Shown here: positions 5,229 through 42,117 of the stretch, one piece after another | Layout of the letters: every line of letters starts with the position of its first letter | Position numbering within the stretch: the first letter of the stretch is position 1 | Source of the DNA: Alistipes sp. | GTDB lineage: Bacteria; Bacteroidota; Bacteroidia; Bacteroidales; Rikenellaceae | Direction of reading: 5' to 3' | Assembly: GCA_017463615.1 (NCBI GenBank) | Contig: JAFTOU010000008.1 | Coordinates: 1-54,507 of the forward strand | DNA length: 54,507 bases | Made by a program: the position numbers and the translations under genes | Notes under the pieces: model-generated | What the model was told of the DNA's origin: nothing | Database searches by the model: none | The model's input: only the letters and a program-made list of their open reading frames with translations

Positions 5229-6296
5229 TTATTTTGTTCGTTTTTTGTTTGACATAACTAAATCAAGTTCTTGCTTTGCGATTTTCATGCTTCGGCCCTC
5301 TTTGATAGTCGTTACACTATATCTCTTGATGAGTTTGTATAAAGCCTCTCTACCTATATTAAACTGTGATATGGCTTCTTCAACAGTATAGTATTCCGGC
5401 TGAGGAAATTTCTCTCTCATCAGTTGGTCGAAGTGCGTCTTTGAGTAGTAACCTTTGTTTCCCTTTCTCATCTTTGGGATAGGATTCTTATATATGAGTC
5501 CGGAAACATAGTGAGGGGCTAAACCATATATATTGCCGATATCCTCCATTGAATACCATTCCGTGATATTGGGATCTGGCAGTCTATGTTTGAGGACTTC
5601 ATCAATATCTTTCTTAGAATAATAAGTTATTCCCTTATGTCTCATACGCGGAACCATACTATTAGATACACATCCGTGAACGGCCTGTACTGTCATCTCA
5701 TATTTCTTACATACGTCTTCAACAGTATACCACTCAGAGATATCAGGGTCGGGAGTAAATAAAGAGAATCGACTATCAATGTGCTTCTTACTAAAGTAGG
5801 TTTTGTTCCCGTGCTTAACGCGAGGAATATTCCTGGATGAAGCATACTTGAAAATCGTATCTTTACTTACTTTGTACTTCTCTTTAATCTCTTCGACAGA
5901 ATAGTAATCCTCCTTGGGTTTGGCAATAACACGCCTCACCTGATAAGGAACATGGAACTGGAACAGTGCATCTATATCCGCTCTGCGTATGAAAATTTTT
6001 CTATTCATCCTGATACAATTCATCTTACCCGTAACACAATATCTGTAAACTGTTGTGCTGGATATGCCCATAAGCTCGGCTACATCCTCGCATGACAGAT
6101 ATTCCTTTTTAAGGGTAGTGGGGGAAATGTCTGGAAGGTTTTCTTGATGCACAACTTTTTCTAACTTTTGCTCTCGTAGGCGAACCTTGTAGCTTCGCTG
6201 TGAACATTTGTGAGAGCAAAATCGGGTACTCAGTTTATGGGCGATAAATTCTTTGCCGCAAAACTGACAAACTTTTTTAACTTCAATCTTGCTCAT
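5229..6296 (-). CDS. Zinc-ribbon protein with five tandem excisionase-like HTH units
   Basis: 355 residues. An N-terminal zinc finger (CQFCGKEF, then FCSHKC; residues about 11-31) is followed by five repeats of one HTH unit: YLSCEDVAELMGIS (about 66), YYSVEEIKEKYKVS (about 130), WYTVEDVCKKYEMT (about 188), WYSMEDIGNIYGLA (about 247) and YYTVEEAISQFNIG (about 304). Units 1-4 end in an aromatic/basic strand and helix such as YFSKKHIDSRF; unit 5 has a divergent end. Each unit resembles the single HTH protein at 3673-4032. It is coupled to the integrase gene. I infer a multivalent DNA-binding accessory or directionality factor; the iterons upstream of its start are candidate targets. No enzymatic domain is visible. 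Confidence 0.7.
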   Translation of the reverse strand: MSKIEVKKVCQFCGKEFIAHKLSTRFCSHKCSQRSYKVRLREQKLEKVVHQENLPDISPTTLKKEYLSCEDVAELMGISSTTVYRYCVTGKMNCIRMNRKIFIRRADIDALFQFHVPYQVRRVIAKPKEDYYSVEEIKEKYKVSKDTIFKYASSRNIPRVKHGNKTYFSKKHIDSRFSLFTPDPDISEWYTVEDVCKKYEMTVQAVHGCVSNSMVPRMRHKGITYYSKKDIDEVLKHRLPDPNITEWYSMEDIGNIYGLAPHYVSGLIYKNPIPKMRKGNKGYYSKTHFDQLMREKFPQPEYYTVEEAISQFNIGREALYKLIKRYSVTTIKEGRSMKIAKQELDLVMSNKKRTK

Positions 6297-6594
6297 ATTA
6301 GCGATATTTGGGAGGTGTCCACAACCTAGGCGAAATAACCGGCGAAATTTTCACTAACGATGTCCTAGGAGGGATAAATGTTACTTTCTTGTAGAATGTA
6401 GAATTTATTTCGCCATTTCATTGCAGCTCATTGCACTCCATTGCACCTCATTGCATTTCACCCCAAAATCCGCTCAATCAAGCACTTAAAATTTTCTTGA
6501 ATGATGACATTGGACATTGGGGGTGAAATAGGGCGAAGAAATATTGCGTAACGATGATAAACAGTAATAAATGGTTTTATCACCAAGAACAAAA
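6297..6594. other. Repeat-rich regulatory or attachment region at the element's right end
   Basis: This gene-free stretch holds two CCTAGG palindromes (6325-6330, 6364-6369), GGCGAAAT twice (6329-6336, 6341-6348) and once inverted (6407-6414), the CATTGCA iterons (listed separately), an inverted pair ATTTCACCCC / GGGGTGAAAT (6454-6463, 6520-6529) and AACGATGATAAA at 6550-6561. The last is repeated directly at 6624-6635 beside mnmE. This density of short repeats next to an integrase operon fits an attachment or control region; the exact crossover point cannot be read from one end. Confidence 0.45.
6419..6458. repeat. Four CATTGCA iterons with exact 10-bp period
   Basis: CATTGCA occurs at 6419, 6429, 6439 and 6449, followed by GCT, CTC, CCT and TTT. 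One helical turn per unit places the motif on one face of the DNA, as in binding arrays for recombination accessory proteins or autoregulators. It lies 123 bp upstream of the five-HTH gene. Confidence 0.7.
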
Positions 6595-20083: not shown

Positions 20084-21101
20084 AGTATATCACTATTCCA
20101 AACCATTTACCACCGAGGGCGGCTATACATTCCCGTCGCTTGATATTGCTTACGATACCTACGGCACAATGAATGCCGAGCGTAGCAATGTCATCTGGGT
20201 ATGCCACGCCCTTACAGCAAACTCGGATGTGGCAGATTGGTGGCCTCATACCGTGGAGGAGGGTTGTTTCCTTGACCCTGCAAAGTACTTTACCGTCTGC
20301 GCCAACTTCCTCGGCTCGCACTATGGCACCACAGGACCACTCTCGGTAAACCCCGCTACGGGCGAGAAGTGGTATGGCGACTTTCCGCTTATCACCGTCC
20401 GCGATATGGTGCGTGTGCACCAGCTGCTGGCGGAGTACCTGGGTATCAGCCGCGTAAAGCTGCTTATCGGTAGCTCTATTGGTGGCTTCCAGTGCCTTGA
20501 GTGGGCGGTTATGCAGCCCGACTTTGCCGAGCGCGCAGCCTTTATCGCCACAACCCCTCGCACGCAGGCGTGGGCTTCGGGCTTCAACGAGTCCCAGCGT
20601 ATGGCTATTGAGTGCGACCCTACATACGGCGAGCGGAGTGACGAGGCGGGACTTACGGGTATGGCGGTTGCTCGCAGTATCGCTCTGCTGAGCTACCGTG
20701 GCGGTATTGCCTATAACCTCTCGCAGGAGGATGCCGACCCCGATAATGCCTCCTTTGAGCGTCGCGTGCTGAGCTACCAGCGCTATCAGGGCGAGAAGCT
20801 GCGCCGTCGCTTCAATGCCTACTCATACTATCGCCTCTCGCAGGCTGTAGATTCGCACAATCTGGGTCGTGGCCGTGGCACTGTGGCGGATGTGCTGAAG
20901 GGTATTCGGGCAAAGAGCCTTGTGGTGGCAATCACCTCGGATATCATCTTCCCACCTGCCGACCACGATATTTTGGTGCAGAATATCCCCGATGTGACCT
21001 ATCGCACTATAGACTCAGTCTTTGGTCACGATGGCTTTTTGGTAGAACACAAACTGTTGAATGAGATAATTTTAGACTTTATGGTAGGTTCTATAAATTA
21101 G
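20076..21101 (+). CDS. metX: Homoserine O-acetyltransferase (MetX)
   Basis: 341 residues, alpha/beta-hydrolase fold. The nucleophile Ser is in LIGSSIGGFQCLEW (about 133), the Asp in VAITSDIIFPP (about 290) and the His in VFGHDGFLVEH (about 318). It acetylates homoserine using acetyl-CoA, feeding MetY. Bacteroidetes homologues near this length lack the CBS domains of archaeal forms. The start overlaps metY by 8 bp. The last five codons and the stop (GGT TCT ATA AAT TAG, with GTA before) lie inside the terminal inverted repeat of the element at 21083-21275, so insertion apparently set the C-terminus. Confidence 0.95.
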   Translation: MSRVYHYSKPFTTEGGYTFPSLDIAYDTYGTMNAERSNVIWVCHALTANSDVADWWPHTVEEGCFLDPAKYFTVCANFLGSHYGTTGPLSVNPATGEKWYGDFPLITVRDMVRVHQLLAEYLGISRVKLLIGSSIGGFQCLEWAVMQPDFAERAAFIATTPRTQAWASGFNESQRMAIECDPTYGERSDEAGLTGMAVARSIALLSYRGGIAYNLSQEDADPDNASFERRVLSYQRYQGEKLRRRFNAYSYYRLSQAVDSHNLGRGRGTVADVLKGIRAKSLVVAITSDIIFPPADHDILVQNIPDVTYRTIDSVFGHDGFLVEHKLLNEIILDFMVGSIN

Positions 21102-21275
21102 GGCGAGGCAATTTGGAAGGTTATTTTGAGCAGGTTTTTCTGCTCTTTTGAGGGAGTAATAGCCTATTATAACCGAGAAAAGCAGGAAAAGATGCCAAAA
21201 TAAACCCCAAAGTGACCGCAATAGAATCTACTAAAACTAAGAATATTAACTAATTACTAATTTATAGAACATACC
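21083..21275 (+). repeat. MITE-like element, copy 1
   Basis: The ends GGTAGGTTCTATAAATTAG and (inverted) GGTATGTTCTATAAATTAG match in 18 of 19 positions. The body up to 21232 folds end to end as a long imperfect hairpin; an inner ATAGAATCTACT also pairs with the left end. A second copy (41923-42113) aligns without gaps to base 42072. No open frame is inside, so any mobility would need a transposase elsewhere. It lies between metX and hom. Confidence 0.8.
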
Positions 21276-21282
21276 TTAAAAG

Positions 21283-22473: not shown

Positions 22474-22599
22474 TTTGGCGTGAAAAGGCGGCATTAGCTG
22501 CACATCCCTCATATCCCCGAATGGGAAATACGCTTTAGTATGTCCCATCCGGGGATATTTCACGATGCCCATCTACTACCACCTTTTGATGCCAAATTA
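22471..22599 (+). repeat. Nested hairpin element, copy B
   Basis: Outer arms TAATTTGGCGTGAAAAGG (22471-22488, beginning with the stop codon of hom) and CCTTTTGATGCCAAATTA (22582-22599). The inner stem at 22515-22554 pairs CCCCG, ATGGGA and ATAC with GTAT, TCCCAT and CGGGG. The loop CGCTTTA matches CGCCTTA in copy A. Several pairs differ from copy A on both sides at once. Confidence 0.75.
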
Positions 22600-22670: not shown

Positions 22671-22838
22671 CTGCGTAGCGCTGTAGTGCGTTAGCCAGGT
22701 GCCGCCCAGTATTCGCGCACCCGGAGGAGGAAGGGTCAGATTTATCTGACCGTTTCTACGACAAAGTCCCCCTTTGCCAAAGGGGGATTTAGGGGGAATG
22801 TAAATATTTTTTTTAAGTTTAGTAGGACGCATTTTATT
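22671..22838. repeat. Composite intergenic repeat, copy 1 (left part)
   Basis: This stretch, from CTGCGTAGC through GCGTTAGCCAGG, ATTCGCGCAC and a GGTCAGAT-TTATCTGACC hairpin to the GTCCCCCTTT / AAAGGGGGA palindrome, is colinear with 31076-31245. The two share most bases. CCCCCTTT-AAAGGGGG sequences of this kind occur as dispersed repeats in many bacteria. No gene is in it. Confidence 0.75.
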
Positions 22839-22951
22839 CGGAAATAGTCTGTATCCGGAGGATACTAAAAGAATATAGAGATACTCGCTCAAACTTGTTT
22901 GGAAGCGAAGTATCTCTATATTCTTGTTGTCGTAGACAACGACTATTTCCG
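22839..22951. repeat. Four-way-junction structured element, copy 1
   Basis: The outer stem is CGGAAATAGTC (22839-22849) with GACTATTTCCG (22941-22951). Packed inside are the hairpin GTATCC-GGA-GGATAC (22851-22865), a long 57-nt hairpin with 16-bp arms (22869-22884 with 22910-22925) and the hairpin GTTGTC-GTA-GACAAC (22926-22940). The architecture matches 31246-31350, but the stem sequences do not. It lies 8 bp from the stop codon of the minus-strand transporter gene, so its RNA would be a 3' UTR structure. Confidence 0.8.
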
Positions 22952-22958
22952 CAGAGCC

Positions 22959-24635
22959 CTACGATAATGCTATCAGCGCGAGGATTTGGGCGGTAAAGAT
23001 TCTGAGGAACATCGTCAGCGGGTAGACTGTAGCGTATGCCACTGCGGAGCGGTCGTTAGACGATACCGAGTTGGCGTATGCCAGTGCTGGAGGGTCGGTC
23101 ATAGCGCCAGCCATAAGACCCATTATTGAGAAGTAGTCCAGCTTGCAGGCTGTGCGGGCGATTATGCCGACGATAAGCAGCGGGAGCATAGTTATTGCTG
23201 CACCGTAGAGTATCCACCAGTATCCGCCGTCCATAATTGCCGACACGAAGCCTTCGCCTGCGCCCAGACCCACGGCAGCGAGGAAGAGTGAGATACCTAT
23301 CTCGCGAATCATCATATTTGCGCTGTTGGTTGTAAATGTCACCAGCTTGTAGTTCGGGCCATAGCGAGCCATAAGAATCGCCACGATAAGTGGACCGCCG
23401 GCAAGACCGAGCTTTACTGGCAGAGGCACACCTGGGAACATAATCGGAATAGAGCCGAGCAGCACGCCGAGGAAGATACCTATAAATATAGGCAGCAGGT
23501 TCGGGTGGTCAAGGCGGTGCACGGAGTTACCGAGGATAGCTGCCACCTGGTCAAGGTCGTTCTTGCGACCCACGACCACAACCACATCGCCCATCTGCAG
23601 GCGCAGGTCGTATGTTGCCACCAGCTCAATACCAGCACGCACTACGCGGGTGATGGTCACATTGTAGCTCTCGCGGATATGCAAATCACCGATATGCTTG
23701 CCGTTGATGCCCGACTTGGTTACAAGGATGCGGCGCTTCTCAAGGTGTGAGGCAGATGTCTGCCACTCCTTGTCGTCAATCTGTATGCTCTCGCCCACGA
23801 GCGACTGTATCAGCTCCACATCGCGGTTGCTTATCACCACACGCAGAATATCGCCCTCGCGCAGCTCTGTGTCGCCTGCAGCTATGAGCTGCTTGTTGTC
23901 GCGAATCATACGGCTCACGACAAACTTGCTGCGTGTAAGCTGTGCAATCTCCTCTATGCGCTTGCCGATGATTCCCTTGTTAGATACCTTGAGGTCTATG
24001 CGGATGGTCTTAGGAGCGTTGCTACGCTCAGAGAGCACCTTCTCGCGGTCTAACTTTATGCGGAAGAAGTAGCGGACAAGTAGCATCACAAGGATAATAC
24101 CCACCACGCCGAGTGGATATGCTACGGCGTATGCCGACGCCAGACGGTTTGTTGTCTCGGCAGCAAAGGCGCTGCTCGCCATAGAGTCGGTTATCGTCTG
24201 CTGTGCCGCACCAAGACCCGGGGTGTTTGTCACCGCGCCCGAGAGCACACCAATCATCGTGGTCAACTCCTCACCCGTAAGTAGGTGTATGCCGTAGCAG
24301 GTCACACAACCCAGCAGGATAATCAGCACCGCCAACGAGTTGAGCGTAAGACCGCCCTCCTTGAGCGATGAGAAGAAACCGGGACCCACCTGCAAACCTA
24401 TGGAGTAGACAAATAGAATAAGTCCAAACTCCTTTACAAAGTGGCAAATCTCCGAATCAATGCCCAAGCCGAAGTGCGAGAGCACAATGCCGACAAAGAG
24501 CACCCAGGTAATACCAAGCGATACCGAGCCAAACTTAATGCGCCCCAGCAGCAGACCGACAGCAATAGTCAGTCCGAGAATCAGCACCGCGTGCGCAATA
24601 GAATTTGCCGTAAATAGATTTATCAACCAATCCAT
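22959..24635 (-). CDS. Putative transporter, AspT/YidE/YbjL family
   Basis: 558 residues. Two membrane halves (about 5-185 and 375-558), each with glycine-rich segments (GLQVGPGFFSSLKEGG; AVGLGAGEGFVSAIMDGG), flank two cytosolic TrkA-C (RCK_C-like) domains at about 205-370. This is the layout of the aspartate:alanine exchanger superfamily. The paired motifs GAVTNTPGLGAAQQ and GAMTDPPALAYAN are characteristic. The substrate is unknown. The gene is transcribed alone, with a promoter at about 24690 and the four-way-junction element directly after its stop. Confidence 0.88.
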   Translation of the reverse strand: MDWLINLFTANSIAHAVLILGLTIAVGLLLGRIKFGSVSLGITWVLFVGIVLSHFGLGIDSEICHFVKEFGLILFVYSIGLQVGPGFFSSLKEGGLTLNSLAVLIILLGCVTCYGIHLLTGEELTTMIGVLSGAVTNTPGLGAAQQTITDSMASSAFAAETTNRLASAYAVAYPLGVVGIILVMLLVRYFFRIKLDREKVLSERSNAPKTIRIDLKVSNKGIIGKRIEEIAQLTRSKFVVSRMIRDNKQLIAAGDTELREGDILRVVISNRDVELIQSLVGESIQIDDKEWQTSASHLEKRRILVTKSGINGKHIGDLHIRESYNVTITRVVRAGIELVATYDLRLQMGDVVVVVGRKNDLDQVAAILGNSVHRLDHPNLLPIFIGIFLGVLLGSIPIMFPGVPLPVKLGLAGGPLIVAILMARYGPNYKLVTFTTNSANMMIREIGISLFLAAVGLGAGEGFVSAIMDGGYWWILYGAAITMLPLLIVGIIARTACKLDYFSIMGLMAGAMTDPPALAYANSVSSNDRSAVAYATVYPLTMFLRIFTAQILALIALS

Positions 24636-31075: not shown

Positions 31076-31245
31076 CTGCGTAGCATTGTATTGCGTTAGC
31101 CAGGCACCGCCACATATTCGCGCACTCGGAGCAGGGACGGTCAGATTTCTCCGACCGTTCCTGCGACCAAGTCCCCCTTTTAAAAAGGGGGATTTAGGGG
31201 GAATGTCAATATTTTTTATAGTTTAGGAGGTCGGTTATCCGACTT
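31076..31245. repeat. Composite intergenic repeat, copy 2 (left part)
   Basis: Colinear with 22671-22838: CTGCGTAGC, GCGTTAGCCAGG, ATTCGCGCAC, a GGTCAGAT / CCGACC hairpin, then GTCCCCCTTTTAAAAAGGGG and GATTTAGGGGGAATGT. It lies between the rplU promoter and the M3 peptidase gene. No gene is in it. Confidence 0.75.
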
Positions 31246-31350
31246 AACTTTCAGAGTCTCCGTAGGAGGTGATATAAAAAGAACCTGACCGCAAACTGGT
31301 TTGCTTGGTCAAGGCTCTTTTTATATCAACAGCTATGCTGTCTGAAAGTT
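31246..31350. repeat. Four-way-junction structured element, copy 2
   Basis: The outer stem is AACTTTCAGA (31246-31255) with TCTGAAAGTT (31341-31350). Inside lie the hairpin CTCC-GTA-GGAG (31258-31268), a long 57-nt hairpin (31271-31327: GATATAAAAAGA pairs with TCTTTTTATATC, tip GCAAAC-TG-GTTTGC) and the hairpin CAGC-TAT-GCTG (31330-31340). Order, spacing and the 57-nt length equal copy 1, with different stem sequences. It ends 6 bp from the stop codon of the minus-strand peptidase. Confidence 0.8.
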
Positions 31351-31356
31351 GCTATA

Positions 31357-33477
31357 CTACTTCTTCAGGTTCATCTGGTCGATCAGGGCCTTGGTTTGAG
31401 GCTTGTGGCCGCGGAACTCTACATAGAGGTCCATAGGGTGTACCTGGCCGCCTGAGGAGAGGAGCTTGCGGAAGGCTGTGGCGGTCTTGGTGTCAAAGAT
31501 GCCGTTCTGCTGGAAGAGCGAGAAGCCGTCAGCAGCCAGAACCTCTGCCCACTTATAGCCGTAGTAGCCAGCAGCGTAGCCACCAGAGAAGATGTGGCCG
31601 AAGGCTGTTGCCATAGCTGTGCCCTCAATTGCAGGGACAACCTTTGTAGACTCCATAGATGCCTTCTCAAATGCCTCCACATCGCCGGTATAAGGCTCGG
31701 TGAGGGTATGCCATGCCATATCGGTAAGGCCGAATGAGAGCTGGCGAACATTTGAGTATGCAGCCAGGTAGTTCTTTGCAGCGACAATCTTCTCAATCAG
31801 CTCTGCAGGCATAGTCTCGCCACTCTGGTAGTGCTTAGCCCACAGGTCAAGGTACTGCTTCTCATAAGCCCAGTTCTCCATAATCTGCGATGGAAGCTCT
31901 ACGAAGTCGCGGTATACGCTTGTGCCGTTGAGGCTCTCGTACTTACCCTTTGCAAGCATACCGTGCAGTGAGTGACCAAACTCGTGGAGGAAGGTTGTCA
32001 GCTCGTCAAATGTGAGCAGCGATGGGGTGGTCTCTGTAGGCTTTGTGAAGTTCATCACAAGCGATACGAGTGGGCGCACCTCCTTGCCATTCTCAACGCA
32101 TGTGCCGCGGAACTCGGTCATCCAAGCGCCTGAGCGCTTGCTCTCGCGTGGGAAGAAGTCAAGGTAGAGAACTGCAAGGTGCTCGCCGTTGTTATCCTTA
32201 ACCTCGTATGCGGTAACATCTGGGTGGTATACTGCGATATTCTCGGCAGGGGTGAAGGTAAGGCCATAGAGGCGCGATGCGAGCATAAATACAGCGTCAA
32301 TAACATTGTCCAACTTGAGGTAAGGCTTTACCAGCTCGTCGCTTACGGCATACTTCTCGTTCTTGTACTTCTCGCTGTAGTAGCCGAAGTCCCAAGGCAT
32401 CAGCTCGCCCTCAAGACCGAGGCTTGCTGCGTATGCTGCAATATCTGCAACATCCTTTGCTGCATACTCAATAGTCTCTGCGCGAAGCTCCTCAAGGAAT
32501 GAGAGCACGGTAGGGGTGTTCTGTGCCATACGGTTATCCAGAACATAGTCTGCATAGCAGTTGTAGCCCAGCAGGTTGGCAATCTTGAGGCGCAGAGCGG
32601 TAATCTGGCGGATGTTGTCCGAGTTGTCAAACTCGCCACCCAGTGCGCGAGAGTTGTATGCCTTCCAGAGCTTCTCCTTGATGTCGCGCTGTGAAGAGTA
32701 GGTCATAAATGGACCATAGCTTGGCGCCTTGAGGGTCACTGTCCAGCCCTTCTGTCCGCGAGCCTTAGCCTCCATAGCCAGACCCTCCTGAACGAATGAT
32801 GGCAGCTCGGCAACCAACTTAGCGTCGGTGATGTTGTAGCTAAATGCGTTTGTTGCAGCTAGAGAGTTCTGGCCGAACTTGAGTGTCAGACCGCTCAGCT
32901 CGCCAGTGTACTGACGATAGAGCTCCTTGTCCTCCTCCGAGAGGTTTGCACCGCCGCGCACGAAGCTCTTGTAGGTATCCTCAAGCAGCTTCTTATCCTC
33001 CTTAGAGAGGAACAGACCTGGATTCTCGTATACATACTTAACACGCTTGAAGAGCTCTGGGTTGAGCGATACATCGTTGCTCAGCGCGGTGAGCTTAGGC
33101 TGAATCTCAATGGCAATCTTCTGCAGCTCGTCGGAGGTATCTGCCTCGTTGAGGTTGAAGAATACGCCACCGATGCGGTCAAGCAGCGAGCCCTGAAGCT
33201 CCAGCGCGAGGATAGTATTTGCAAAGGTAGGCTTTGCAGGGTTGTTTACAATAGCATCCACCTCGGCACGAGATACGGCGATAGCGGTCTCAAATGCTGG
33301 CATATAGTGCTCCAGCTTGATGCTCTCAAATGGAGGTGTCTGGTGAGGTGTGTTCCACTCTGCAAGCAGAGGATTTGTGGTGTCAATCTCTGGCATTACT
33401 ACGGTAGGCATAGCCTCGCCACCGCAACCAGAAAGAAGCAGTGATGCTGACATAAGTGTAAATAGTGTTTTTCTCAT
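31357..33477 (-). CDS. M3 family metallopeptidase lipoprotein (Dcp-like)
   Basis: 706 residues. A lipoprotein signal with lipobox LSGC (about 18) anchors it, probably to the outer membrane. The M3 catalytic motif is FLHEFGHSLHGML; further conserved parts are DFVELPSQIMENWAYE, FSGGYAAGYYGYKWAEVLA and FRKLLSSGGQVHPMDLY. The sequence resembles peptidyl-dipeptidase Dcp, which removes dipeptides from C-termini. It follows a second M3 gene by 8 bp. A lipoprotein form suggests periplasmic or surface peptide breakdown. Its stop is followed by the four-way-junction element. Confidence 0.92.
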   Translation of the reverse strand: MRKTLFTLMSASLLLSGCGGEAMPTVVMPEIDTTNPLLAEWNTPHQTPPFESIKLEHYMPAFETAIAVSRAEVDAIVNNPAKPTFANTILALELQGSLLDRIGGVFFNLNEADTSDELQKIAIEIQPKLTALSNDVSLNPELFKRVKYVYENPGLFLSKEDKKLLEDTYKSFVRGGANLSEEDKELYRQYTGELSGLTLKFGQNSLAATNAFSYNITDAKLVAELPSFVQEGLAMEAKARGQKGWTVTLKAPSYGPFMTYSSQRDIKEKLWKAYNSRALGGEFDNSDNIRQITALRLKIANLLGYNCYADYVLDNRMAQNTPTVLSFLEELRAETIEYAAKDVADIAAYAASLGLEGELMPWDFGYYSEKYKNEKYAVSDELVKPYLKLDNVIDAVFMLASRLYGLTFTPAENIAVYHPDVTAYEVKDNNGEHLAVLYLDFFPRESKRSGAWMTEFRGTCVENGKEVRPLVSLVMNFTKPTETTPSLLTFDELTTFLHEFGHSLHGMLAKGKYESLNGTSVYRDFVELPSQIMENWAYEKQYLDLWAKHYQSGETMPAELIEKIVAAKNYLAAYSNVRQLSFGLTDMAWHTLTEPYTGDVEAFEKASMESTKVVPAIEGTAMATAFGHIFSGGYAAGYYGYKWAEVLAADGFSLFQQNGIFDTKTATAFRKLLSSGGQVHPMDLYVEFRGHKPQTKALIDQMNLKK

Positions 33478-33485
33478 AATTGTAA

Positions 33486-35666
33486 TTATTTAGTTTTCTT
33501 CATTTTTAGCATTTCGGCAACGGAGAGCTCCTTGATGGTAACTGTGCTGTCTACCACAGGCTCTTTCCACAGTCCGCGCGCCTTGAGCATAGCGGTCTTG
33601 TCTGGGTTCTTGCCACGGAAGGCGTTGTAGAGGCTCATGCCATCCTTAGAGCCACCTGCGGAGAGTATCTCGCGGCGCAGAGCATCGGCAGTGCGGCGGT
33701 CAAAGAGGTCGCCACTCTCGCGGAACGCCTCAAAGGCATCCTTATCCAGCACCTCTGCCCAGATGTAGAAGTAGTAGCCCGCCGAGTAACCCCCTGCAAA
33801 GATGTGTGCAAAGTAGGTGTAGTGGTAGCGAGGCTCAATCTGCGGAATCATACCGCGCTTCTCATAGAGGGCGTTGTACTCATAGCCGTCTACATCTATA
33901 GGCTTGTACTCCGTAGTTGAGTGGATGTCAAGGTCGCTGAGCGCTGAGGCTACAAGCTCAGTGGTGTTGAAACCCTGATTGAAGAGGGCACTGTGCTGTA
34001 TGCGGGAGATAAACTGGTCGCGGATAACCTCGCCCGTGCGGTAGTGGGTAGCGTAACTGCGAAGCATCTCCGGTGTGAGTGCCCAGTTCTCCATAATCTG
34101 CGATGGAAGCTCCACGAAGTCGCCCTCTACGCCGATAAGGCCGTTGTAGCGAACATTGGTAAAGAGGAAGTGGAGTGCGTGACCAAACTCGTGGAATAGG
34201 GTAGTAACCTCGTCAAGGGTGAGCAGTGACGGGGTGCTCTCTGTAGGGCGTGTGAAGTTGCAGACAATGCCTACCACTGGCGCTGTGCGTGTGCCGTCAG
34301 CCTCATAACGCTGCTCGCGGTAGTAGCCGCACCATGCACCCTGACCCTTGCCTGCGCGTGGGTGGAAGTCAAAGTAGAGAATACCCAGATGGCTCTCGTC
34401 CTTGTCCAACACCTCGTATGCCGATACCTCCTTGTGGTATACTGGCACATTCACAGGGCGGAAGGTGATACCAAAGAGGCGATTTGCAAGGTTGAAGATA
34501 CCCTGACGGGTGTTATCCAACGAGAAGTAGCTGCGGATAACCTCCTCGTTGAGGGCATACTTCTCGCCACGCACCTTCTCGGCATAGAACCACCAGTCCC
34601 ATGCCTCAAACTTATCCTCAGCGTCGGTGTGGGTGTTCTTAAACATACGCTCCATCTCGGCAAGCTCCGCCTTGGCGCTCTCTACGGCTGGAGTCCAAAT
34701 CTCGTCCAGCAGGGCATATACAGCCTTAGGGTCGCCCGCCATCTGGTCGGAGATTACATAGTGCGCGTAGGAGTCGTAGCCCAACATGTGAGCCTTCTCG
34801 GTGCGCAGACGAATCATATCGTCAATAATCTGCTTGTTGTCGTACTCGTTGTTGTTATTGCAACGGTTGATATATGCACGATAGAGCTGCTCGCGAGCCT
34901 TGCGGTCTGGCGAGAAGGTGAGGAACGGTATCAGGCTCGGCTTGTGGAGAGTGAAGGCATACTTGCCCTCCTCGCCCAGCTCCTTAGCCTTCAGGCGCGC
35001 TGCATCCTTGATAGAGGCTGGCAGTGGCGCTACATCCTTGTCCTCAAGGTACATAACATAGTTGTTGTTCTCGGCAAGCACATTGCTGCCAAAGCGTACA
35101 GAGAGGGCAGAGAGCTCCTCGTTAATCTGCTTAAGACGTGCCTTCTTGTCGGCATCCAATAGCGCACCGCTACGAACAAAGTCGTCGTAAGTCTTCTCTG
35201 TCAGGCGAATCTGGTCGGCGTCAAGGTCGTGGCTCAGGCGAGTGTCGTAGACAGCCTTCACGCGAGCAAAGAGAGGCTCGTTCATCAGTATCGCATCGCT
35301 GTGGGCTGAGAGCATTGGCATAATCTCGCCCTCAAGAGCCTGTAGGGTGTCGTTTGTCTCGGCGGCACAAATCATACCGAAGACATTTGATACATCCGAG
35401 AGCATACGGCCGCTGCGGTCCATTGCCGCAATGGTATTCTCAAATGTAGGCTCCTCAGCGTTCTCAACGATGGAGGCAATCTCATCGTTATGCAGGGAGA
35501 TAGCACGCTCAAAGGCGGGCAGGTAGTGGTAGTCCTTGATACTCTCAAATGGCGGAACACCATACGGAGTGTTCCAACTCTCAAAGAATGGATTTGGCAG
35601 CTGCTCTGCCTCCTTGTTGCAACCAATCATAGCTATTGCCAATAATATAACTGCTAAACGTTTCAT
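33486..35666 (-). CDS. M3 family metallopeptidase lipoprotein, second paralog
   Basis: 726 residues from ATG 35666 (MKRLAVILLAIAMIGC, lipobox MIGC). The longer frame to 35741 adds 25 residues before a perfect lipoprotein signal and is rejected. The catalytic motif is LFHEFGHALHFLF, with DFVELPSQIMENWAL and FAGGYSAGYYFYIWAEVLD. The C-terminus is about 30 residues longer than its partner (KEPVVDSTVTIKELSVAEM). It is a tandem duplicate of 31357-33477 but clearly diverged, so it may differ in peptide preference. Confidence 0.92.
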   Translation of the reverse strand: MKRLAVILLAIAMIGCNKEAEQLPNPFFESWNTPYGVPPFESIKDYHYLPAFERAISLHNDEIASIVENAEEPTFENTIAAMDRSGRMLSDVSNVFGMICAAETNDTLQALEGEIMPMLSAHSDAILMNEPLFARVKAVYDTRLSHDLDADQIRLTEKTYDDFVRSGALLDADKKARLKQINEELSALSVRFGSNVLAENNNYVMYLEDKDVAPLPASIKDAARLKAKELGEEGKYAFTLHKPSLIPFLTFSPDRKAREQLYRAYINRCNNNNEYDNKQIIDDMIRLRTEKAHMLGYDSYAHYVISDQMAGDPKAVYALLDEIWTPAVESAKAELAEMERMFKNTHTDAEDKFEAWDWWFYAEKVRGEKYALNEEVIRSYFSLDNTRQGIFNLANRLFGITFRPVNVPVYHKEVSAYEVLDKDESHLGILYFDFHPRAGKGQGAWCGYYREQRYEADGTRTAPVVGIVCNFTRPTESTPSLLTLDEVTTLFHEFGHALHFLFTNVRYNGLIGVEGDFVELPSQIMENWALTPEMLRSYATHYRTGEVIRDQFISRIQHSALFNQGFNTTELVASALSDLDIHSTTEYKPIDVDGYEYNALYEKRGMIPQIEPRYHYTYFAHIFAGGYSAGYYFYIWAEVLDKDAFEAFRESGDLFDRRTADALRREILSAGGSKDGMSLYNAFRGKNPDKTAMLKARGLWKEPVVDSTVTIKELSVAEMLKMKKTK

Positions 35667-35761
35667 ATCTAAGAAACTGCTTAAAATTTTAATAAAAAAG
35701 TTATTTTCTGAACACTGTTTGAATCTCAAAATAAAATTCAAGCAGTTTCTAAAAAAATTGT

Positions 35762-37052: not shown

Positions 37053-37594
37053 TATACCTGCAGCTGTTTATATCCTATCTCAAGATTGGCTTCTTCGGCT
37101 TCGGTGGTGGTTATGCTATGCTCTCGCTTATCCAGAACGAGATTGTTGAGCAGCGCGGCTGGATAACCGCCTCGCAGTTTGCTGATATTGTCGCTATCTC
37201 GCAGATGACCCCGGGTCCTATCGCCATCAACTCGGCAACATATATCGGCTATACCGTCGGAGGCTTCTGGGGCTCCGCTGTAGCTACACTTGCCGTCTGC
37301 CTGCCCGCACTTACCGTTATGCTGGCACTCACTAAGTTCTTCCTCAAACTCAAGGATAACCGCTATGTGGCGGGCGTGCTTATGGGTATGCGCCCCGTCG
37401 TTATCGGTATGATTGCCGCTGCCGCCCTGCTGCTCATCTTCCCCAAGCAGAGCACCGACAATAGCTTCATAGACCCCTGGAGTTGGATACTCTTTGGTGT
37501 GACGCTCTACGCCAGCTATAAGAAGGTGAATCCGATACTGCTGATAGTTATTTCGGCAGTGGTGGGCATTATTATTTATGGAGTTTTGCCGTGA
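37049..37594 (+). CDS. Chromate transporter half (ChrA-type), subunit 2
   Basis: 181 residues with the matching CHR motif LKIGFFGFGGGYAMLSLIQN and SQMTPGPIAINSATYIGY. Presumed to form a heteromer with the preceding half. The last codons and stop (TTG CCG TGA) overlap a fragment of the nested hairpin family (TTTTGCCGTGAAAA). Confidence 0.9.
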   Translation: MIYLQLFISYLKIGFFGFGGGYAMLSLIQNEIVEQRGWITASQFADIVAISQMTPGPIAINSATYIGYTVGGFWGSAVATLAVCLPALTVMLALTKFFLKLKDNRYVAGVLMGMRPVVIGMIAAAALLLIFPKQSTDNSFIDPWSWILFGVTLYASYKKVNPILLIVISAVVGIIIYGVLP

Positions 37595-37827
37595 AAATAC
37601 GGCATTAGCTGCACACCCCTCAGCGATATATTAAAGGCTATTAAGGGATGCGCAAACATTTTGTACTGCGTAGCGTCGCGGAACGCGACCATTAGTATCC
37701 CTTAATACTCTTTAATGCCCCTTAATAAAAAAACTCTAAAAGCCGACGATGTAAATCACACCCTATAAACACTATCGCGCAGCGATACCTTGATATAGCC
37801 AATAGCCAATGGCTAAAAGCCAAAAGC
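37588..37827 (+). repeat. Intergenic mosaic, fragment of nested hairpin family plus own hairpin
   Basis: CCGTGAAAATACGGCATTAG and CTGCACACCCCTC match 22478-22510 closely, but the right outer arm is absent. A separate imperfect stem ATTAAAGGCTATTAAGGGAT (37630-37649) with ATCCCTTAATACTCTTTAAT (37697-37716) encloses GTCGCG-GAA-CGCGAC (37675-37689). Further on are ACTGCGTAGCG, AAACACTATCGCGCAGCGATACCT and the TAGCCAATGGCTA words, all shared with other intergenic regions. No gene seen. Confidence 0.6.
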
Positions 37828-41905: not shown

Positions 41906-41922
41906 AAATTATAGATTCAAGA

Positions 41923-42113
41923 GGTAGGTTCTATAAATTAGGGCGAGGTGATTTTGGAGGTTATTTCGGATAGGTTTCGCCACTCTTTTGAGGGCGTAAT
42001 CGCCGATTATAACCGAGAAAAGCGGCAAAAGATGCCGAAATAAGTCCAAAAGCGACCGCAATAGAATCTACTCAAAAGCAAAAATTACATTTTACTAATT
42101 TATAGAACATACC
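41923..42113 (+). repeat. MITE-like element, copy 2
   Basis: Same element as 21083-21275. The ends GGTAGGTTCTATAAATTAG and (inverted) GGTATGTTCTATAAATTAG are identical to copy 1. The body aligns to copy 1 with a constant offset of 20840 and no gaps to 42072. Base changes between the copies tend to preserve pairing. It lies between the methyltransferase and a small membrane protein gene whose ATG is 4 bp beyond its end. Confidence 0.8.
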
Positions 42114-42117
42114 TCAT

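Follow-up and report, generated by a model that had tools for sequence, protein, structure and literature searches.

The window (the whole stretch of 54,507 nucleotides analysed here, from an Alistipes genome designated G000) carries two intergenic elements, copy 1 and copy 2, in each of which an outer stem surrounds a short hairpin (H1), a long hairpin (H2) and a second short hairpin (H3). Each lies just behind the stop codon of a minus-strand gene, and each follows the same composite repeat, as the earlier note had reported. Throughout, "plus strand" denotes the strand that reads from the composite repeat into the junction, which is the plus strand of the window for both copies. The features are as follows:

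22671..22815, plus strand: composite repeat before copy 1, 85% identical to 31076-31220
22839..22849, plus strand: copy 1, 5' strand of the outer stem, CGGAAATAGTC, from the fold
22851..22865, plus strand: copy 1, H1, triloop GGA with a C-G closing pair, from the fold
22869..22925, plus strand: copy 1, H2, the long hairpin (57 nt), with an AT-rich base lacking a strict A/T tract
22926..22940, plus strand: copy 1, H3, triloop GTA, from the fold
22941..22951, plus strand: copy 1, 3' strand of the outer stem, from the fold
22959..24635, minus strand: Asp-Al_Ex/TrkA_C permease gene, its stop codon adjoining copy 1
31076..31220, plus strand: composite repeat before copy 2, 145 bp, 85% identical to 22671-22815
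31245..31254, plus strand: copy 2, 5' strand of the outer stem, TAACTTTCAG, from the fold
31257..31269, plus strand: copy 2, H1, triloop GTA with a C-G closing pair, from the fold
31270..31328, plus strand: copy 2, H2, the long hairpin, with an A-tract, a GC-richer stem and a T-tract, the anatomy of a bidirectional terminator
31329..31341, plus strand: copy 2, H3, triloop TAT, from the fold
31342..31351, plus strand: copy 2, 3' strand of the outer stem, from the fold
31357..33477, minus strand: M3 peptidase gene, its stop codon adjoining copy 2

The gap to the minus-strand ORF is 7 bp for copy 1 and 5 bp for copy 2 (6 bp by the end point used earlier). The left neighbour of copy 2 is rplU, on the minus strand, where the ORF caller had assigned a plus-strand ORF instead. 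Elsewhere in the window, a MITE-like repeat occurs in two copies (21078-21280 and 41921-42115; 85% identical over 154 nt) with inverted ends GGTAGGTTCTATAAATTAG and CTAATTTATAGAACATACC, and similar ends are found beside other loci of the genome. A further intergenic repeat (22474-22511 and 37585-37622; 89% identical over 38 nt), with a large palindrome after its first copy, belongs to the same mosaic intergenic landscape. The stretch 31357-35741 holds a tandem pair of M3 peptidase genes; a second match, at about 42% identity, also lies beside the first in many of the genus genomes.

The observation of a four-way junction at both sites is confirmed by the folds (z from about -6 to -11). The minimum free energy (MFE) of copy 1 is -56.2 kcal/mol on the plus strand and -56.8 kcal/mol on the minus strand (z -9.4 and -11.3), that of copy 2 is -46.3 and -49.5 kcal/mol (z -6.1 and -10.1), and in each of the four copy-strand cases none of 200 dinucleotide shuffles folded as well. 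The long hairpin, earlier described as exactly 57 nt in both copies, has that length in copy 1; in copy 2 it measures 59 nt in the MFE fold, and across the family it ranges from 47 to 66 nt (95 copies). When the plus strand of the window was scanned loosely for this architecture, with no sequence requirement, copies 1 and 2 were the only matches; the same scan on 200 shuffles gave a mean of 0.225 matches, with at least two matches in 4/200, so the architecture by itself is weak evidence, and the reality of the element is settled instead by the existence of further copies. Aligning copies 1 and 2 by themselves with MAFFT gave nothing usable, and Rfam models gave 0 matches in the window at gathering score.

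These further copies were reached through both the composite repeat and covariance models. A 168-base query of the composite repeat returned 32 matches in the genome. Among the 30 loci retrieved, 20 have a junction to their right, representing 17 distinct places; six (L008, L011, L013, L016, L020 and L021) carry a single long hairpin where the junction would be, one (L018) has neither, and three (L015, L022 and L030) lie at contig ends. Away from contig ends, a single long hairpin thus takes the place of the junction in six of the seven loci without one. A covariance model built from 16 type-A copies (R1) found 17 strong type-A places in G000, although two of them lie at contig ends, have the same sequence and could be a single place; run over 41 genomes, it matched five, all of one genus. 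Its weaker matches led to other junction types, which were named by their outer stems:

Type A outer stem: AACTTTCA
Type B outer stem: CGGATTTAGG
Type C outer stem: GGAAATAGTC, including window copy 1
Type D outer stem: GCAGCCTTTTG

Copy 2, behind the M3 peptidase of G000, is a type A junction, so the two window copies seem unrelated because they represent different sequence types of the same family. Model R3, covering types B and C, scores window copy 1 at 74.5 bits and adds 28 type-B/C places in G000 (counted from the match list), for a total of about 45 with type A. Under strict filters, and with G000 included in both counts, R3 matched 47 of 180 Alistipes genus genomes and the type D model (R2) 22 of 180, so that the covariance-model scan extends the pair first noticed to many loci and to other genomes of the genus. 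In 246 further genomes of the same order, R3 found no junction and gave one partial match (G387, L263), which was rejected as just an H2-like hairpin without a junction; that search used the R3 model only. The hairpin itself, which shares the apex and bulge of H2, comes from another family's genome (L263, about 1495-1645) and lies behind a tRNA gene. Relatives of the M3 peptidase at 89-94% identity are labelled Rikenellaceae or Alistipes, three of five with sheep, cattle or goat gut as their source. The elements are members of a large dispersed family of non-coding DNA repeats in gut Alistipes.

The master set assembled for the family-wide counts comprises 111 copies, 110 of them distinct, and is a sample, with part of the matches from the R2 and R3 genome scans included. 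Duplicates (L034, equal to L033; L061, equal to L104; L109, equal to L055; L052, equal to L124), matches that were fragmentary or odd (L056, L059, L070, L071, L100 and L101) and opposite-strand matches were excluded. One candidate that scored as a junction, at L006 635-746, proved to be a different element, resembling a four-way junction, in which two opposed terminator hairpins have their T- and A-tracts paired together. In G005, locus L113 carries junction pairs arranged head-to-head (27-358 and 5987-6439), the second pair lying between two facing gene ends.

Structure prediction over this set shows a four-way junction fold made of an outer stem, a short H1, a long H2 and a short H3, with the helices mostly abutting. 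The MFE structure has three branches in 95 of the 110 distinct copies and is not the junction in the other 15; under a strand-symmetric fold the junction is obtained in 107/110. Among 95 copies, H1 adjoins H2 without a linker in 79, H3 adjoins the outer stem in 79, and both hold in 66; the outer stem has at least 7 pairs (median 11). At the apex of H2, CAAG or a covarying variant mostly faces its complement across a 4-nt loop, and the first break below the apex is a bulge confined to the 3' side, of 2 nt in 65 copies and 1 nt in 14 (95 copies). H1 is not an inverted repeat of H3: its mean score is 0.27 against its own H3 and 0.28 against the H3 of other copies (best 0.53; 95 copies). Its plus-strand loops (n = 107) are GNA in 71 and GNNA in 4, with 32 others and no TNC. 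As d(GNA) triloops closed by C-G are also stable in DNA, with loop contacts resembling those of RNA GNRA loops (PMC5815330), these loops do not decide between DNA and RNA.

The earlier reading, which our analysis partly supports, missed a further property: in most copies H2 usually looks, by its anatomy, like a bidirectional intrinsic terminator. Its 5' arm has an A-tract (at least 5 of 6) in 71/95 copies and a T-tract in 0/95, its 3' arm has a T-tract in 73/95 and an A-tract in 0/95, and the upper arm is GC-richer. An A- or T-tract is present in 76 of 95 copies (type A 7/15, types B/C 45/49, type D 24/31); the strict tract is absent from 19, window copy 1 among them, and present in copy 2. 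A strict intrinsic-terminator rule, which recognised 23/118 control gene ends, 3/43 with a junction within 45 nt and 2/41 with a junction at 46-170 nt, was set aside because it missed long stems. A relaxed finder gave 23/43 and 7/41 for the same two distance classes and 3/10 (window), 27/75 and 46/80 for controls; about 19 of the 23 hairpins found were as long as H2, and this finder served only as a lead to the tract count.

Neighbouring genes were taken from mechanical ORF calls, some of which are wrong. A right neighbour was assigned to 95 of the 110 copies, and it presents its 3' end to the junction in 77 and its start in 18, so the position behind a stop codon seen in the window is the prevailing one in the family. 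Tracts are commoner in copies facing a 3' end (64/76) than in those facing a start (10/17; p=0.04), and by these same mechanical calls five copies apparently lie between divergent genes. At the M3 peptidase locus, the stop codon is followed directly by a type A junction in G000 and by a type B junction in G186; in G152, G062, G063, G080 and G005 a plain terminator-like hairpin stands there instead (judged by eye), and in G109 a hairpin is followed further on by a type B junction.

Wobble pairs in the junction favour one strand. These pairs, counted on the plus strand in the strand-symmetric fold, are 131 G.T against 39 A.C over 110 copies, and 80 against 24 when one copy is taken per k-mer cluster (68 clusters, of which 36 lean to G.T, 11 to A.C and 21 are ties); distinct wobble contexts number 93 against 31. 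By helix, the G.T:A.C ratio is 22:3 in the outer stem, 10:1 in H1 and 88:26 in H2, with no strand bias in H3 (5:4); over 43 coarser clusters it is 12:2, 6:0, 24:9 and 3:2, respectively. The covariance models that supplied types B-D could slightly favour wobble pairs; type A, for which 16 of 17 copies were found by DNA similarity, has 20 distinct G.T contexts against 2 A.C. By the orientation of the neighbours, the ratio is 13:2 where both are on the plus strand, 45:16 where they converge and 15:10 where both are on the minus strand; the contrasts between orientations are not significant (p 0.15 and 0.49), and the minus-minus bias, which is not reversed, is itself not significant. The bias therefore tracks the element more than neighbouring transcription, an effect of transcription also being possible.

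These patterns bear on an RNA-level explanation, in which H2 would act as a terminator while H1, H3 and the outer stem protect RNA ends or block read-through into the convergent gene; the earlier note had similarly offered an RNA 3'-UTR structure as one of two readings. The terminator anatomy of H2, the prevalence of facing gene 3' ends, the concentration of tracts in those copies and the peak of wobble bias with both neighbours on the plus strand are all in its favour. Yet the strand favoured by the wobble pairs is antisense to the adjoining gene, which makes a simple 3'-UTR RNA less than the best interpretation, and the 18 copies that face a gene start speak against it too. The central terminator should end most transcripts before the outer stem closes, yet the outer stem, which spans that terminator, is biased as well; the absence of reversal in minus-minus contexts and the five copies apparently between divergent genes also count against an RNA element. 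We consider this explanation unlikely.

Junction pairing has been retained while the sequence diverged, as the earlier note had inferred from its two copies. In an MAFFT alignment of 16 type-A sequences, 94.1% of cells pair and 16 of 36 pairs show changes on both sides; none of 500 shuffles reached any of five covariation measures, and slid structures pair at 35-50%. The shuffle control should not be read as a probability, since a single member supplied the structure and the sequences are not independent but related. Between tpiA and queA, the spacer of G000, G062 and G152 measures 409-431 nt (to the queA N-terminal motif) and contains a junction; between G000 and G062/G152 the outer stem, H1 and H3 are nearly alike and H2 differs, one of its T-A pairs having become G-C through changes in both partners (by eye). 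The same locus has a plain hairpin in spacers of 94 and 107 nt in G128 and G178, respectively, and in G005 a junction with very different inner hairpins within conserved flanks (L094 versus L118). In another orthologous pair (L090 versus L106), the inner hairpins have likewise been swapped wholesale, flanks and outer stem being retained in both pairs; of further orthologues, L064 and L083 are nearly identical and L150 is decaying. Exchange on this scale suggests conversion or re-insertion, and part of the divergence is therefore not point change.

Such exchange, which is conversion-like, and the near-identical copies found within genomes are what would be expected if the junction as such were under no selection, being a terminator flanked by inverted repeats whose palindromy is kept up as the arms switch templates and the copies convert one another. 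That process, however, predicts equal numbers of G.T and A.C pairs, against the 80:24 seen, and loss of the H2-apex bulge, whereas a 3'-side-only bulge of 1-2 nt is the first interruption in 79/95 copies; it also leaves the one-sided GNA loops unexplained. Neutral upkeep of this kind is, in our judgement, rather improbable.

Within G109, G086 and G063, junction cores are 93-100% identical in 7/7 pairs while their outer flanks are 56-61% identical, and near-identical copies at unrelated loci indicate recent spread. In the compared pairs, the shared sequence breaks off at, or close to, one junction edge: in the type-A pair and a type-B pair of G086 it spans the composite repeat and extends no further than the right edge of the junction, and in the G063 and G109 type-B pairs it begins at the left edge or a little ahead of it and continues for about 70 bp through small hairpins. 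A search for the REP transposase Y1_Tnp (PF01797) gave no match in 20 carriers or in 16 genus genomes, with a positive E. coli control; the carrier genomes are all drafts, some 58-85% complete, so loss in assembly is possible. Reverse transcriptase (RVT_1, PF00078) was dropped as a candidate mobiliser, being found in 4/14 carriers and 6/12 genomes without a listed match, likewise drafts, which is no association. Orientation by replication strand was likewise dropped, given that the copies at C40:224433 and 226718, separated by only about 2 kb of the same contig, face opposite directions.

That the element belongs to a known system, either an integron attC site, which keeps structure over sequence and sits behind ORFs, or a REPIN moved by a RAYT transposase, REPINs being dispersed, carrying compensatory changes and drawable as a clover (PMC3116915), is very improbable given that Y1_Tnp was not found in those 20 carriers and 16 genus genomes, that H1 is no closer to its own H3 than to others' H3, and that the outer ends of types B-D, compared by eye, are without attC motifs.

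The reading we prefer, at a probability of roughly one half, is a REPIN- or MITE-like mosaic repeat that is constrained to fold as single-stranded DNA and carries a terminator. The junction is the core of this dispersed mosaic repeat, recurring at many loci. The repeat would spread as non-autonomous mobile DNA, its plus strand having to fold as a single strand for recognition, as proposed for REPINs, and would settle mainly at gene 3' ends, where H2 could serve the flanking units as a terminator. Since H2 would be able to replace terminator function, insertion there would be tolerated, and the terminator may be cargo that makes insertion at a gene end harmless or useful. Selection on the full junction is more readily placed on single-stranded DNA because most transcripts, from whichever direction, should terminate within it: despite the central terminator, the outer stem is conserved, covarying and strand-biased, which favours a single-strand-DNA constraint. 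Folded plus-strand DNA would account for the outer stem without read-through; rare read-through RNA would do so too, and the tolerance of G.T pairs and the GNA loops suit RNA as well. We infer the DNA step, the mobilising enzyme and the benefit of the cargo from these patterns. The second reading of the earlier note, cruciform DNA spread by an enzyme, fits better than a 3'-UTR RNA; searches for its enzyme among Y1 transposases and reverse transcriptases gave no candidate. More tentatively, and with more doubt than confidence, the element could represent a new type of mobile DNA, one whose moving form is a single strand folded into a characteristic four-way junction, which uses an enzyme outside the Y1 transposases and brings its own two-way terminator, able to replace terminators genome-wide.

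Retention of one structure across unrelated sequences in more than 100 examined copies makes this a tractable case, in which selection on DNA and selection on RNA give differing, testable predictions. It also suggests that a spreading repeat can replace terminators, and it points to a mobilising enzyme in common gut bacteria.

No description of the Alistipes junction element was found in a search of mainly open-access PMC literature. Integron attC sites conserve structure over sequence, favour one strand and lie behind ORFs, and their outer motifs are RYYYAAC/GTTRRRY. The Alistipes element resembles them in all three respects and differs in being a genome-dispersed four-way junction; by eye, some type A ends fit these motifs and those of types B-D do not. 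BIME, ERIC, RUP and BOX elements are hairpin mosaics or single units in intergenic DNA, often at gene ends. They share with the element their intergenic palindromic hairpin units and this location; unlike them, the junction core keeps one architecture over four outer-stem types that differ in sequence. Bidirectional intrinsic terminators between convergent genes have the same A-tract, GC-richer stem and T-tract, whereas H2 is wrapped in two hairpins and an outer stem and is relocated around the genome. Like MITEs, the element has terminal inverted repeats, in the form of its outer stem, but its moved unit can extend past one side of that stem. The closest known system is the REPIN/REP-RAYT system. 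REPs are reported to carry a GTAG or CGTC tag (PMC3733652). The Alistipes element differs in that no Y1 transposase was found in 20/20 carriers, in lacking two inverted copies of one REP (H1 and H3 being mutually unrelated) and in possessing a central terminator anatomy. With REPINs it shares its short, extragenic, multi-copy nature, a putative folded single strand and compensatory changes, a clover fold having been considered for them as well (PMC3116915).
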